Assembly: GCF_017654505.1 (NCBI RefSeq)
Contig: NC_054539.1
Coordinates: forward strand, 66,735,256 to 66,799,255
DNA length: 64,000 nucleotides
Direction of reading: 5' to 3'
Source: Polyodon spathula
Taxonomy: Eukaryota; Chordata; Actinopteri; Acipenseriformes; Polyodontidae
The notes beneath the pieces were generated by a model. It was not told the DNA's origin, did not search any database, and saw nothing but the letters and a program-made list of their open reading frames with translations. The translations under genes were made by a program, and so were the position numbers. This document shows positions 16,349 to 56,851 of this stretch, piece after piece (position 1 is the stretch's first letter; each line of letters begins with the position of its first letter).

Positions 16349-17247
16349 ATGATTACTTTTCACAAGTATACTGACAACATGCCCCACATGTCACCCAGTG
16401 TTTTAAATAACTTTAGCATAACTGAGGCAGAAGTGTTAAAGGGACTAGGAGCTCTTAAAATAAACAAATCCCCTGGGCCGGATGAGATCCTCCCAGTAGT
16501 ACTCAAAGAAATGAAAGAAGTAATTTACAAACCGCTAACCAAGATCATGCAGCAGTCTCTTGACACAGGGGTGGTACCGACAGACTGGAAAATTGCAAAC
16601 GTAACACCGATCCACAAAAAGGGGAACAAAAAACTGAACCAGGTAACTACAGACCAGTAAGCCTGACTTCTATTATATGCAAACTTATGGAAACTATAAT
16701 AAGAGCCAAAATGGAAAATTACCTATATGGTAACAGAGTACTGGGAGACAGTCAACATGGTTTTAGGAAAGGGAGATCGTGCCTAACTAACTTGCTTGAT
16801 TTTTTTGAGGATGCAACATCGATAATGGATAATTGCAAAGCATATGACATGGTTTATTTAGATTTCCAGAAAGCTTTTGACAAAGTCCCGCACAAAAGAT
16901 TAATTCTCAAACTGAACGCAGTTGGGATTCAAGGAAACACATGTACATGGATTAGGGAGTGGTTAACATGTAGAAAACAGAAAGTACTGATTAGAGGAAA
17001 AACCTCAGAATGGAGTGTGGTAACCAGTGGTGTACCACAGGGATCAGTATTAGGTCCTCTGCTATTCCTAATCTACATTAATGATTTAGATTCTGGTATA
17101 GTAAGCAAACTTGTTAAATTTGCAGACGACACAAAAGTAGGAGGAGTGGCAAACACTGTTGCAGCAGCAAAGGTCATTCAAAATGATCTAGACAAGATTC
17201 AGAACTGGGCAGACACATGGCAAATAACATTTAATAGAGAAAAGTAA
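16349..17247 (+). pseudogene. CR1 ORF2 reverse transcriptase domain, broken
   Basis: This encodes the fingers and palm of a non-LTR reverse transcriptase, which copies element RNA at the nicked target. Visible motifs in order are LGALKINKSPGPDEI, IANVTPIHKKG, DSQHGFRKGRSC, YLDFQKAFDKVPH (motif A aspartate), SGVPQGSVLGPLLF, and FADDT at 17,119-17,133 (the two catalytic aspartates). A frameshift near 16,640 separates the first 100 residues from the rest, and a stop at 17,245 interrupts before the thumb. The start given is an in-frame Met of convenience, since the real ORF2 start lies upstream and is absent. Confidence 0.93.
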
Positions 17248-52102: not shown

Positions 52103-52290
52103 ATCCCTGTAGCAGGGGGAGATCTGTGCTGACTCTGCTGGCGTGTTCATAGTACTGCAGGAAGAGGGCGGCAGTCATCCAACAACCGCCTGTGAGTCAT
52201 GACAGTGACACGGGGAGGTGGGAAAGTGGATGTGTGGACTTTCCCCCTCTCTGAATGGCTGAGAGGTGAGTCTTGGGAGATTGCTAGCCC

Positions 52291-52300
52291 TATAAAAAAA
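52291..52300 (+). promoter_or_regulatory. TATA box of the 5' LTR
   Basis: TATAAAAAAA about 180 bp into the LTR; the 3' LTR has TATATAAAAA at the equivalent place (56,307-56,316). It is the likely core promoter for the genomic RNA. Confidence 0.65.
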
Positions 52301-52748
52301 TGCTCTGCTGTTTCCTCAGGTCTGCCCTTTTAAACACGCCGAGAGTGCAGAAGCGCTGGTCCACGACCGAGAACCAGTTGGAGAGAACGGAACGGAGGTT
52401 CAGAGCGAGACAGTGAGGGCGGGGAACCCTTGGGCAGACCCCTTAAAAGTATAGCTGAGCAGGCTAGTTAGCCCGCAGCGTAGGACGGTGATCCGGGTTG
52501 CAGGGGCAGCGGCGACTGGGATATTGCTGCAGAGTGCAGCACCTTTTCTTTATAGTTTTGTTACTGTTTTATTTTCCCTGTTTCTTTGTGCCTTCTGTTT
52601 TGAATTATTGTTTTGAAGCACCTGCAAGGGCGTCGGTATTGTGTACCCTCGCTTGGCATGCCCATGGTTCTGTTTACCATCGTTGGTAAATCAGAGCACG
52701 GACCCACAGTGCCAACTGCAGTCTAAAAAGAAATAAGGCACCCTGCAA

Positions 52749-52754
52749 AATAAA
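52749..52754 (+). terminator. Poly(A) signal of the 5' LTR
   Basis: AATAAA in the context CTGCAAAATAAAACT, repeated at 56,766-56,771 in the 3' LTR, where it would direct polyadenylation of the element RNA. Confidence 0.6.
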
Positions 52755-52831
52755 ACTGGGCACCTGTGTGGTGTTTTCAAGTACACCTGTCTGTCTCCTG
52801 GTCAGTGAATTACCCACACCCCTTCCACACG

Positions 52832-52850
52832 TGGTGTCAGCAGTGGGATT
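52832..52850 (+). other. Primer-binding site, tRNA-Leu type
   Basis: TGGTGTCAGCAGTGGGATT starts two bases after the 5' LTR. It is complementary, with one mismatch, to the 3' end of vertebrate tRNA-Leu (…AATCCCACTCCTGACA plus CCA), as I know that sequence. It would prime minus-strand synthesis. Confidence 0.8.
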
Positions 52851-52898
52851 CACTGGCATTGCCCCAAGCAGTGCATTCACAGAAGGAGCAGACGGGCA

Positions 52899-53545
52899 AT
52901 GGATGCTACACAGTTTGCTGCGATGATGGACCTCCTGCGCCAGACGCTCACCGTAGCAGTGCAGGGGGCGGCTAGACCAGCAGCTCCAGAACCCCGGTTA
53001 CAACACCCCACAAAAATGACGGCCGAGGGTCGACCCGACGCCTATTTAGAGGTGTTTGAGGCCATGGCGACCTCGGCCGGGTGGGATCCAGCACAATGGG
53101 TTAGCTACCTGGGTCCAGCGACAGGCAGTACCAGGCAGAGGAGCCAACGCCTGGGAAACTGCCCGGGAGGAGTGCGGCTACTGGATCGTCTCCTCAACTG
53201 GCCCCGGAGAGGGCGAAGGGACTGGGGGGAACAGGTAGTCCAGGATTTCGTAGGGGGGCATCGGCGGGATCTCCCGGCCCAGGAACTGGGGCAGGGTGGG
53301 GATACCCACGGGCTGCTGCAGTGTCGGACCGGGGTCTCGCGCGGACACCTTATCGGCGAGCCCCTTTTATGGCTCCAGTGTTTCCCCCAATGGCTCGTGG
53401 GTGCTCCCCTGCCGCAAACTGCTCCTCCCGGAATTTCTTTCGATACCCCTCCGGTGTGGCCCCCTTTCGCGATCCAGAATGGTTTTGCCATAAATTTAGA
53501 CCCTGTCAAACTAAACGGGAGCGCTGGATCGGTAAGAATGAGGGC
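52899..53545 (+). pseudogene. gag remnant of the Gmr1-like element
   Basis: Gag forms the particle that packages the element RNA. The frame starts MDATQFAAMMDLLRQTLTV, 70 bp after the LTR, and includes HPTKMTAEGRPDAYLEVFEA and SAGWDPAQWVSYLGPATG, matching the usual Gypsy gag opening in which a K-M-T...D...YL-x-xFE segment precedes the capsid. After WVSYLGPATG (about 53,124) the frame is lost; later pieces in other frames (for example 53,321-53,560) are proline- and cysteine-containing but show no intact CCHC knuckle or DSG protease motif. Most of capsid, and all recognisable protease, are missing or degraded. Confidence 0.75.
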
Positions 53546-53550
53546 TGGCA

Positions 53551-53976
53551 ATGGAGGGAGTCGGAGAAGTGGGGGCGGTTGGCGAGTCGGGGGGGGAGGT
53601 CGCGGAGCCAGCGCAGGGGTCTGGCTCGGCTGCCTCTGCTTGGGATCGACCTGACCCCGAATTGGAAGCCATGGGAGCTGATTTCTTAGCTCGCTCCCGT
53701 GACTTCCGACTCCAGCACAACGTGCTGGGCAGGCTCTTTGACCAAGCAGCGGTGGTTAATGGTCGGGTGGTCGAACCCAGACGCGCCGCCACGTACCCCC
53801 ACTTTGAAATTGATCGAGACCTACTGTACCGTGTTGATAAATTACCACAGACCGGTGAAGTGCGTCATCAGTTGCTCATTCCTCAGCCCTTTAAGGAGGA
53901 TTTGTTGCAGCTGGCTCACGCTATTCCCCTGTCTGGTCATTTGGGAAGGGACAAAACTAAAGCAAGGAACATGTAA
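53551..53976 (+). pseudogene. Integrase N-terminal zinc-binding region, truncated
   Basis: The second half of this frame (from about LARSRDFRLQ through YPHFEIDRDLLYRVDK, LLIPQPFKEDLLQLAH and AIPLSGHLGRDKT) is the lead-in and H-x(n)-H part of the HHCC zinc-binding domain of a Ty3/Gypsy integrase. The expected sequence after GHLG-x-x-KT, with the two cysteines and the DDE catalytic core, is absent; within about 70 bp the sequence jumps to the very end of the core. The start used is an in-frame Met. Its location upstream of reverse transcriptase is the key structural feature. Confidence 0.85.
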
Positions 53977-54042
53977 GCTTTTGGGAATTAAGACCATTAG
54001 GACCTCCCCTAGTGGAAGCTGTTTCATCCTAGTTGGGCCAGA

Positions 54043-54676
54043 CCGACGGTTTTGGTGGAACGCTTTAATAAGACCCCTAAGAACATGTTGCGCAGTAAAG
54101 GTTTATTCCCAAGTAGTGATGTGCGTTACTGGGACCAGCTGATTCCCTCCCCTTCTCTTTGCGATCAGAGAGGTTCCCCAGGCTTCCACGGGGTTTTCAC
54201 CATTCAAGCTGTTGTATGGGCGGAGACCCCGGGGCGTGCTCGATCTGGTCAGAGAGATGTGGGAGGAGCAGCAGGACAATTCGACCAATACCGTCCGGTA
54301 TGTGTTGGACCTGCGCAAACGTCTTGAGTCTGTTGGGAAATGGGCGCATGACAATTTGCAGCAGGCACAGCACAGACAGGAGACCCAGTATAACCGAGGA
54401 GCCCAGTTGCGCACATTTCAGCCAGGGGATAAGGTACTTCTATTATTACCCAGTTCTGAGTCGAAACTCTTGGCTAAGTGGCAAGGACCCTTTGAGGTTA
54501 CCTGCCAGGTTGGGAAGGTGGACTATGAGATCTGCCAGCTGGAGCGACAGAGAGAGAAACACATTTATCATATCAACCTCTTAAAGCCTTGGTTGCAACC
54601 AGAGACGTTGTTAGTGGCGCATGCAGATGACGTCACGGACCTGGGACCTGATCTTTCTGTGTTGGCAAGAAAATGA
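54043..54676 (+). pseudogene. Integrase C-terminal region with GPF module
   Basis: It begins with LVERFNKTPKNMLR, the end of the integrase catalytic core in Gypsy elements, then (after a frame change near 54,190) MYGRRPRGVLDLVREMWEEQ, a helical segment, AQLRTFQPGDKVLLLLP, KWQGPFEVTCQVGKVDYEI (the GPY/F module, here GPF) and EKHIYHINLLKPW. This is the DNA- and chromatin-binding tail of integrase. The catalytic Asp, Asp and Glu residues have been deleted. A stop at 54,674 separates it from reverse transcriptase, which normally continues in the same polyprotein in this family. Confidence 0.9.
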
Positions 54677-54733
54677 TCGGTACAGATTGCTGAGAATCTG
54701 ACACCAACGCAGAAATGTCAGGCTCACGGTCTG

Positions 54734-55429
54734 GTGGCGGAGTTTCCTGACATGTTCTCTTCAGTCCCGGGGCAGACTCCAGTAGCCCATCATCACATTG
54801 ATATTGAGCCGGGGGCGCTAGTTTGCCAGAGGCCGTACCGTATACCTGAGCGTAAAAGACAGGTAATAAAAGCAGAAATTGACGAAATGCTGAGACTGGG
54901 GGTAATAGAAGAGTCCCAAAGTGACTGGAACAGTCCGATCGTTTTAGTCGATAAGCCAGACGGGTCAACTCGATTTTGCATTGATTTTAGACGAATCAAT
55001 GAGAAATTGAAATTTGACGCTTATCCGATGCCCCGGGTAGATGAGTTGCTGGAGCGTCTAGGCACGGCTCATTTTATGACGACACTGGATTTAACGAAGT
55101 GGTACTGGCAGATACCCCTGACTCCGGAATCTAGAGAGAGGACGGCGTTTTTGACTCCCTTCGGGTTGTACCAATTTAGGACCATGCCCTTTGGGTTGCA
55201 CGGAGCACCCGCCACTTTCCAGCGGATGATGGATCGCATCTTGCGGCCCCATCAGCAGTACGCCGCTGCTTACATAGATGACGTGGTCATCCACAGTGAG
55301 GATTGGCTGAGTCATCTGTGTAAGGTAGCGGCGGTGCTGCAATCCTTGCGGGAGGCGGGGCTCACTGCTAACCCAAAGAAGTGTGCCATTGGGAAGAGTG
55401 AGTCAGAGTATTTGGGGGGTATCGAATAG
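54734..55429 (+). pseudogene. Gmr1-like reverse transcriptase
   Basis: A 231-codon frame covering most of the reverse transcriptase: FPDMFSSVPGQTPVAHHHID (pre-RT), QRPYRIPERKRQVIKAEI, MLRLGVIEESQSDWNSPIVL, DGSTRFCIDFRRINEKLKFD, TTLDLTKWYWQIPLTPES (motif A catalytic Asp), PFGLHGAPATFQRMMD, and YIDDVVIHS (55,271-55,297; YxDD box with both catalytic Asp). All catalytic residues are present. The frame ends at 55,427 by a frame change in a G-run, YLGG then stop, before the connection to RNase H. The start is an in-frame Met, while translation normally enters from the integrase upstream. Confidence 0.95.
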
Positions 55430-56085
55430 GGGGTGGCCAGATCAGACCGCTGGTTGCTAAGGTGAAAGCTTTGGCTGACTGGCCGGTTCCTACAACCAAA
55501 ACCCAGGTGCGCTCTTTCTTGGGCTAGCGGGTTATTATAGAAAGTTCATCCCGAGCTTCGCTACGCTCGCTGCTTCCTTGACAGACCTCACCCGGAAGGC
55601 TGCCCCAAATACGGTTCAGTGGACGGAGTCGTGCCAGAGGGCTTTTCTCACCTTGAAGCGGAGGCTGTGTAGTAAGCCAGTGCTATGCAGCCCGGATTTT
55701 GGTAAGAGGTTCACCCTGCAGACGGATGCGTCAGAGTCTCGGGGCCGTGTTGTTTCAGGAGGTTCGGGGAAGCGAGCACCCGGTCCTGTACATCAGCAGG
55801 AAGCTCCTTCCCCGCAAGAAAAATTATAGCACCATTGAGAAGGAGTGTCTCGCAGTAAAATGGGCAGTCGAGTCACTCCGGTACTACCTCCTGGGGTGAC
55901 ACTTCACCCTGGTTACAGATCATGCCCCCTTAGCATGGCTTCACCGGATGAAAGGTAGCAATGCCAGAATCACACAGTGATACTTGGCCTTGCAGCCCTA
56001 TGCCTTCAGGGTAGTCCACCAAGCAGGAAAGCTGCATCAAAATGCAGAATTTTTCTCTCGGGAAGGCATGGGGGTGTAGGTTTTT
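55430..56085 (+). pseudogene. RT connection and RNase H, broken
   Basis: This carries the tether and RNase H that remove RNA from the hybrid. Visible pieces are [55 protein letters not shown] (RNase H first Asp), [20 protein letters not shown] with [17 protein letters not shown] (Glu), and TDHAPLAWLHRMKGSNARIT (Asp) then YLALQPYAFRVVHQAGK. At least one frameshift (about 55,740) and stops at about 55,896 and 55,978 (the latter TGA in place of Trp) disable it. The coding region ends at about 56,080 and is followed by the 3' LTR, with no integrase in between. Confidence 0.9.
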
Positions 56086-56109
56086 CGAATGAACCGGTGG
56101 TGTCATTCT

Positions 56110-56122
56110 GAGGGAAAGGATA
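56110..56122 (+). other. Polypurine tract
   Basis: GAGGGAAAGGATA immediately precedes the 3' LTR and would prime plus-strand DNA synthesis. Confidence 0.7.
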
Positions 56123-56846
56123 TGTAGCAGGGGGAGATCTGTGCTAACTCTGCTGGCGTGTTCACAGTACTGCAGGAAGAGGGCAGCAGTCATCCAAAAA
56201 CCGCCTGTGACACGGGGAGGTGGGAACGTAGGTGTGTGGACTTTGTGTGTGGACTTTTCCCCCTCTCTGTATGGCTGAGAGGCGAGTCTTGGGAGATTGC
56301 TAGCCCTATATAAAAATGCTCTGCTGTTTCCTCAGGTCTGCCCTGTTAAAACGCGCCAAGAGTGTGAAAGCGCTGGTCCACAACCAAGAACCAGTCGGAG
56401 AGAACGGAACGGAGGTTGAGAGCGAGACAGTGAGGGCGGGGAACCCTTGGGCAGACCCCTTAAAAGTTTAACTGAGCAGGCTAGTTAGCCGGCAGTGTAG
56501 GACGGTGATCCGGGTCGCACGGACAGCGGCGACCGGGATATTGCTGCAGAGTGCAGCACCTTTTCTTTATAGTTTTGTTACTGTTTTATTTTCCCTGTTT
56601 CTTTGTGCCTTCTGTTTTGAATTATTGTTTCGAAGCACCTGCAAGGGCGCCGGTATTGTGTACCCTCGCTTGGTATGCCCGTGGTTCTGTTTACCATCGT
56701 TGGTAAATCAGACCACGGACCCACAGCGCCATCTGCGGGCTAAAAAGAAATAAGGCACCCTGCAAAATAAAACTAGGCACCTGTGTGGTGTTTTCAAGTA
56801 CACCTGTCTGTCTCCTGGTCAGTGAATTAACCACACCCCTTCCACA
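56123..56846 (+). repeat. 3' LTR of the Gmr1-like element
   Basis: Homologous end to end to the 5' LTR, from TGTAGCAGGGGGAGATCTG to CCTTCCACA. It has an extra TTGTGTGTGGACTT-like insertion near 56,243 and lacks the GAGTCATGACAG segment of the 5' copy. TATA box at 56,307-56,316 and AATAAA at 56,766-56,771. It is followed by the ATCCC target duplication. Confidence 0.95.
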
Positions 56847-56851
56847 ATCCC

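Follow-up and report, generated by a model that had tools for sequence, protein, structure and literature searches.

An internally deleted LTR retrotransposon of Polyodon spathula with integrase ahead of reverse transcriptase, very probably a Gmr1-like Ty3/Gypsy element

Introduction

In canonical Ty3/Gypsy long terminal repeat (LTR) retrotransposons the integrase follows RNase H, whereas in Gmr1-like elements it lies upstream of the reverse transcriptase (RT). The Gmr1-like clade of Ty3/Gypsy has been known since 2001-2002, reportedly through the work of Butler et al. (2001) and of Goodwin and Poulter (2002). Here we analysed a stretch of 64,000 nucleotides of the paddlefish Polyodon spathula (contig NC_054539.1, positions 66,735,256 to 66,799,255; hereafter the window), in which an element at positions 52108-56846 carries its integrase ahead of RT. 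The question is how this copy came by that order. Almost certainly, the window copy stems from one insertion of a Gmr1-like Ty3/Gypsy LTR retrotransposon, carries internal deletions and inherited the order from its source element. The order is thus confirmed but ordinary, because many intact-looking copies in the same genome have it.

Structure of the insertion

Positions 52108-56846 were found to be one LTR-retrotransposon insertion, with both an LTR pair and a target-site duplication. The two LTRs are identical at 670 of 709 aligned bases, and 26 of the 39 substitutions are transitions. Besides the substitutions, the alignment contains gaps of 13, 14 and 1 bases, and the LTR-LTR divergence is 0.057 (Kimura two-parameter distance, K2P). 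The internal region was read frame by frame against Pfam and aligned to L040, one of the related copies of the same genome (L039-L042) described below. The features, with their basis in brackets, are as follows.

52103..52107, 5′ copy of the target-site duplication, ATCCC (sequence)
52108..52829, plus strand, 5′ LTR with TG...CA ends (LTR-pair alignment)
52832..52850, plus strand, putative primer-binding site (same site in L039-L041, one base different)
52852..53107, plus strand, leader and 5′ part of gag (within block 52830-53107, collinear with L040 2028-2305)
53125..53388, plus strand, gag portion past the SCAN-type capsid domain (collinear with L040 2663-2926)
53390..53464, minus strand, inverted 75-bp gag fragment inside the gag/protease deletion (93% identical to L040 2485-2411)
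53462..53877, plus strand, protease-integrase linker (collinear with L040 from 3426; Pfam positions in L040)
53878..53967, plus strand, integrase zinc-binding domain, of which a deletion leaves the first half (partial Integrase_H2C2 match; L040 alignment)
53966..54676, plus strand, end of the integrase core and C-terminal region, with the GPF module at 54485-54589 (Integrase_p58_C; collinear with L040 from 4320)
54677..55429, plus strand, RT with a YIDD motif, open for 250 aa (RVT_1; 97% DNA identity to L040)
55430..56078, plus strand, RNase H region over two frames (RT_RNaseH and RT_RNaseH_2; end set by comparison with L040)
56110..56119, plus strand, putative polypurine tract shortly 5′ of the 3′ LTR (sequence; same place in L039-L041)
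56123..56846, plus strand, 3′ LTR with TG...CA ends (LTR-pair alignment)
56847..56851, 3′ copy of the target-site duplication, ATCCC (sequence)

The domain order in the window copy is integrase, RT, RNase H and LTR, and the end of RNase H is about 44 bp from the 3′ LTR. This Pfam order and short distance bear out the initial annotation, which had read integrase ahead of RT and RNase H with the 3′ LTR soon after. The partial Integrase_H2C2 match (E = 6.7e-4, 53878-53967) covers profile positions 1-29 of 59. A zinc region had been drawn at 53551-53976; its last 90 bp are indeed half of a zinc domain, while most of it turned out to be protease-integrase linker. The proposed integrase C-terminal GPF module was recovered as Integrase_p58_C (E = 1.7e-8, 54485-54589) and contains the stretch KWQGPFEV. 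RVT_1 matched the frame 54677-55429 with E = 3.9e-31, and RNase H was found in two frames (3.2e-11 at 55479-55829 and 3.2e-17 at 55657-55899). For the putative primer-binding site at 52832-52850, tRNA-Leu is a candidate primer, as reported for a sturgeon relative. ARAGORN, run with bacterial settings, found no tRNA in the window.

The family in the paddlefish genome

The paddlefish genome (1,541,705,134 bases) was searched with the RT of the window copy; 150 of 12,170 candidates were scored, and the resulting counts are lower bounds. Of the 150 matches listed, one is the window copy and the other 149 are 96-98% identical to it; 92 of the 150 lie in open frames of at least 1400 aa. The host genome holds a young integrase-first family with RTs that are 96-98% identical.

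Four copies (L039-L042) were taken with their flanks; they recur among the loci below, L039 as L017, L040 as L020, L041 as L032 and L042 as L010. L039-L041 consist of an LTR, a single frame of 1425-1466 aa and a second LTR, each with a 5-bp target duplication, although the 3′ LTR of L040 is partly deleted. The frame of L042 is split in two. When L039 and L040 were scanned with Pfam in overlapping pieces, both showed the order SCAN, CCHC knuckle, RVP protease, Integrase_H2C2, rve, p58_C, RVT_1 and RNase H. The E-values for L039 and L040 were 4.3e-18 and 2e-18 for SCAN, 9e-17 and 1.1e-16 for Integrase_H2C2, 5.2e-13 for rve, 2.4e-10 for p58_C, 5.6e-33 for RVT_1, and 7.6e-40 and 3.9e-40 for RNase H. 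In addition, the PDB SCAN domains of ZNF24 and PEG3 matched the gag piece of L040, and the best solved structure for its RT-RNase H piece was the Ty3 RT (4ol8, 2e-91), which indicates a Ty3/Gypsy-type RT.

The same arrangement was seen more widely. Integrase C-terminus, RT, RNase H and LTR follow each other in that order in all 29 loci L010-L038, and an H2C2 and/or core piece lies further upstream in 27 of them. Their 210-aa RT segments fall into only three distinct sequences and are identical in 27 of the 29 loci, which points to a recent burst; these loci are the best-scoring RT matches, and the identical share is not that of the whole family. Integrase upstream of RT, a Gmr1-like feature, is thus present in the window copy, in L039 and L040 and in 29 of 29 loci. 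The SCAN-homologous capsid, a further Gmr1-like feature, is present in L039 and L040 and deleted in the window copy. The initial annotation had also asked after full-length relatives with integrase behind RNase H, the canonical Ty3/Gypsy feature. Neither the window copy nor any of the relatives found by RT, whose LTRs are 74-81% identical to its own, has that arrangement.

Deletions in the window copy

Between the LTRs, the window copy aligns to L040 as four plus-strand blocks in the order of L040 (52830-53107, 53125-53388, 53462-53967 and 53966-56122), together with the 75-bp inverted piece. Because these blocks are collinear with L040 and separated by gaps, the window copy is a deleted relative of integrase-first elements. 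Its three deletions removed nearly all of the SCAN domain (at about 2421-2678 in L040), the zinc knuckle with the protease, and most of the integrase core. The integrase C-terminus, RT and everything up to the 3′ LTR lie in one block, 95% identical to L040. The survival of the order in a heavily deleted copy is a plain consequence of the intact relatives in the same genome. The inverted gag piece in the gag/protease deletion might have arisen by template switching or break repair.

No locus among L010-L042 (33 loci, 29 different copies) spans any of the four junctions of the window copy. About 30 loci allowed a test of junction 3, whereas most begin downstream of junctions 1 and 2, which left only about 2-5 loci a side for those. 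Internal deletions whose junctions differ from one locus to the next are present in four of the 29 RT-selected loci (L011, L012, L028 and L035), and deletions therefore arise repeatedly. The two ends of the L028 deletion lie about 7 and 18 bp from those of the third deletion of the window copy, but the junction is not common to the two. Several deletion junctions carry short repeats, of ten bases in L012. The short repeats and the nearly coincident deletions fit template switching during reverse transcription.

These junctions bear on the idea that the window copy represents a non-autonomous subfamily, which multiplied in deleted form with its own diverged LTRs and took its enzymes from intact copies. 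Such a subfamily would accord with LTRs that are far more diverged from other copies than pol is, and with the LTRs, primer site, purine tract and target duplication that the window copy has kept. However, as far as the loci reach across them, its junctions recur in none of the 29 copies, which were chosen by RT match, and the deletions of L011, L012, L028 and L035 have other junctions. We give this explanation little credence.

Canonical controls and phylogeny

The same element pieces also detected four canonical Gypsy copies in this genome (L001, L044, L045 and L046), in which RT, RNase H, H2C2 and core follow in that order, with integrase last; in L001 the integrase core is split over two frames. 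L043 shows RT only because its contig ends. L002-L008, found as RVT_1 matches, were left unused, as their best match to any element piece had an E-value of 0.003.

In a wider search with the integrase-RT-RNase H piece of L040, 7967 candidates were scored and 2861 matched with an E-value of at most 1e-10; 120 of the matches are listed. The listed homologues include Chinese sturgeon (64-65% identical), carps, salmonids, cod (57%), bichir, turtles, frogs and a caecilian. In 119 of the 120 we found core, C-terminus, RT and RNase H pieces, always with integrase first; the remaining one has no C-terminus match, but its H2C2 and core lie ahead of RT. The SCAN piece of L040 is matched by 35 of the 120 listed homologues.

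For the trees, 35 of these 120 homologues, organism-named and chosen by hand, were used, and the 29 host loci were collapsed to three RT rows. In the RT trees all 39 integrase-first rows, including the window copy, fall on one side of a branch with support of 98/98 (six canonical rows), 98/95 (five, without Ty3) and 100/100 (three, without Ty3, L043 and L044). The integrase tree gave the same split (96/91) with four canonical rows, L043 having no row in it. The window copy was left out of this tree because its integrase core is deleted, and four host copies stood in its place. The cod protein P0093 is among the integrase-first rows that group with the family; the trees include few named canonical clades and do not contain Gmr1 itself. 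Both the long-frame copies, with integrase before RT, and the grouping of the family with integrase-first vertebrate elements in the RT and integrase trees agree with the Gmr1-like order proposed in the initial annotation.

The trees also speak to whether the order arose independently in this fish lineage, in an integrase-first element outside the Gmr1-like clade. Cod is represented by the protein P0093 in place of the named Gmr1, and the place of the host family inside the integrase-first group is weakly supported, which leaves some room for this origin. Nevertheless, its RT and integrase fall with the integrase-first elements of cod, sturgeon, carp, turtle and frog, apart from the canonical rows, and its SCAN-type capsid is a reported mark of Gmr1-like gag. 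An independent origin is thus very improbable.

We see next to no chance that a canonical Gypsy element acquired the order when an integrase fragment of another element inserted upstream of its RT-RNase H remnant: rearrangement did occur, as the window copy is deleted and has one inverted piece, but relatives show this order within an unbroken frame of 1425-1466 aa, the stretch from C-terminus to 3′ LTR matches L040 without interruption at 95%, and there is a single outer target duplication. No target duplication or break was found around the integrase part, for which a separate nested insertion had been considered. A nested or shuffled integrase as the source of the order is rejected in view of the full-length collinear relatives, and deletion did not produce the order either.

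Origin of the window copy

The following course is proposed. In the long-frame relatives a single frame encodes a SCAN-type capsid, a zinc knuckle, a protease, integrase, RT and RNase H, in that order. As is established for LTR elements in their packing, priming and integration, Gag would pack the element RNA, copying would start from a primer after the 5′ LTR, and integration would make the 5-bp duplication. The protease would cut the polyprotein, and integrase could therefore work wherever it is placed in the frame. The window copy would owe its integrase-first order to the source element. The capsid and the integrase core would have been largely lost, along with the zinc knuckle and the protease, while the copy was being reverse transcribed or afterwards; it would also have gained the small inverted gag fragment and decayed.

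Several points weigh against our reading of the window copy as an inherited Gmr1-like element. First, its Integrase_H2C2 match, taken alone, is below the Pfam curated cut-off. Second, the activity, processing and priming of the element are matters that we infer. Third, the query that brought in the integrase-first rows was itself integrase-first, canonical rows sit on long branches (as a warning of the tree tool indicated), and Gmr1 is absent from the trees. Given the query bias, the long canonical branches and the use of 35 of 120 rows, the trees support kinship and not a single origin of the order. Fourth, the LTRs of the window copy are 74-81% identical to those of other copies, whereas its RT DNA is 97-98% identical to that of L039-L042.

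The LTR identities were taken on the longest matching piece, among loci chosen by RT match. On the same footing, the LTRs of other copies are 81-99% identical to that of L041, without L032, which is the same copy as L041. Between the window copy and L039-L042, the integrase C-terminal region is 92-93% identical and the gag start 83-92%. From the contrast of 74-81% in the LTRs with 97-98% in RT, it follows that the nearest LTR relatives of the window copy are not among the RT-selected loci. This contrast could mean that the copy belongs to an LTR subfamily, that the LTRs of the source lineage changed fast, that subfamilies recombined, or a combination of these. In a more specific version, the window copy would be a recombinant: switching of templates between co-packaged RNAs would have joined a nearly modern pol to a Gmr1-like LTR, leader and gag start of older or foreign origin. 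The inverted gag piece and the deletions would be traces of the same switching, and the deleted form would have moved with borrowed enzymes. We consider this version unlikely. If it were true, the family would shed mobile deletion derivatives while it expands.

Other features of the window

Elsewhere in the window, a 227-aa open frame at 16564-17247 on the plus strand contains a reverse transcriptase domain (RVT_1, 1.6e-34), which we take from its sequence to be like that of a long interspersed nuclear element (LINE). On the minus strand, a frame at 21618-22826 matches Exo_endo_phos (4.3e-10) and adjoins a 173-aa frame without a Pfam match; it is probably a LINE fragment.

Comparison with known systems

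The window family resembles Gmr1 and the Gmr1-like clade in its integrase upstream of RT, its Gypsy-type RT and its SCAN-type capsid, and the window copy differs from Gmr1 in having lost the protease and the greater part of both the capsid and the integrase core. Particular to the window copy are its three deletions, the 75-bp inverted gag fragment and LTRs that have diverged far more than pol. Earlier papers state that the Gmr1 lineage has a Copia-like integrase order (PMC2774666), link the SCAN domain to Gmr1-like gag (PMC4592553, PMC3424704) and give about 200 Gmr1-like copies for a frog genome (PMC4131045). In pufferfishes, young Gmr families are described in PMC11117352, where Gmr1-4 measure 1506-1634 aa; the single gag-pol frame of the host family is similar to these in form and size.

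Among sturgeons, PMC11640988 reports a Gmr1-like fragment, Abr1, from the Siberian sturgeon and names it the closest relative of cod Gmr1. Its reported tRNA-Leu primer site lies ahead of gag, protease and integrase; a primer site and then these three is also the arrangement of the paddlefish family. The host of Abr1 belongs to the same order as the paddlefish. Because the clade is widespread in vertebrates and Abr1 is in print, the statement of the initial annotation that the copy adds a lineage is unsupported. According to these papers, the kind of element, its presence in sturgeons and its SCAN capsid are already in print. Among the papers found on Gmr1 with sturgeon, or on Gypsy with paddlefish and LTR retrotransposon, of which only some were consulted further, no title or abstract describes this family in paddlefish, which is not proof of absence. 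The picture of the Gmr1-like clade is unchanged.

In direct comparison, the integrase-RT-RNase H piece of the host family shares 65% identity with P0001 and 64% with P0002, both from Chinese sturgeon, and the Gadus morhua protein P0093, a stand-in for the named Gmr1, is 57% identical over 97% of that piece of L040. The SCAN-bearing gag of the family offers a useful point of comparison for how SCAN transcription factors arose. Canonical Ty3/Gypsy elements (Ty3, L001, L044, L045 and L046) have homologous RT, RNase H and integrase, and the RTs of Ty3 and five canonical host rows are 39-45% identical to that of the window copy. Unlike the window family, the canonical copies L001, L044, L045 and L046 have integrase after RNase H. 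The paddlefish thus offers a clean case, in which nearly identical long-frame integrase-first copies stand beside canonical integrase-last Gypsy elements in one fish genome.

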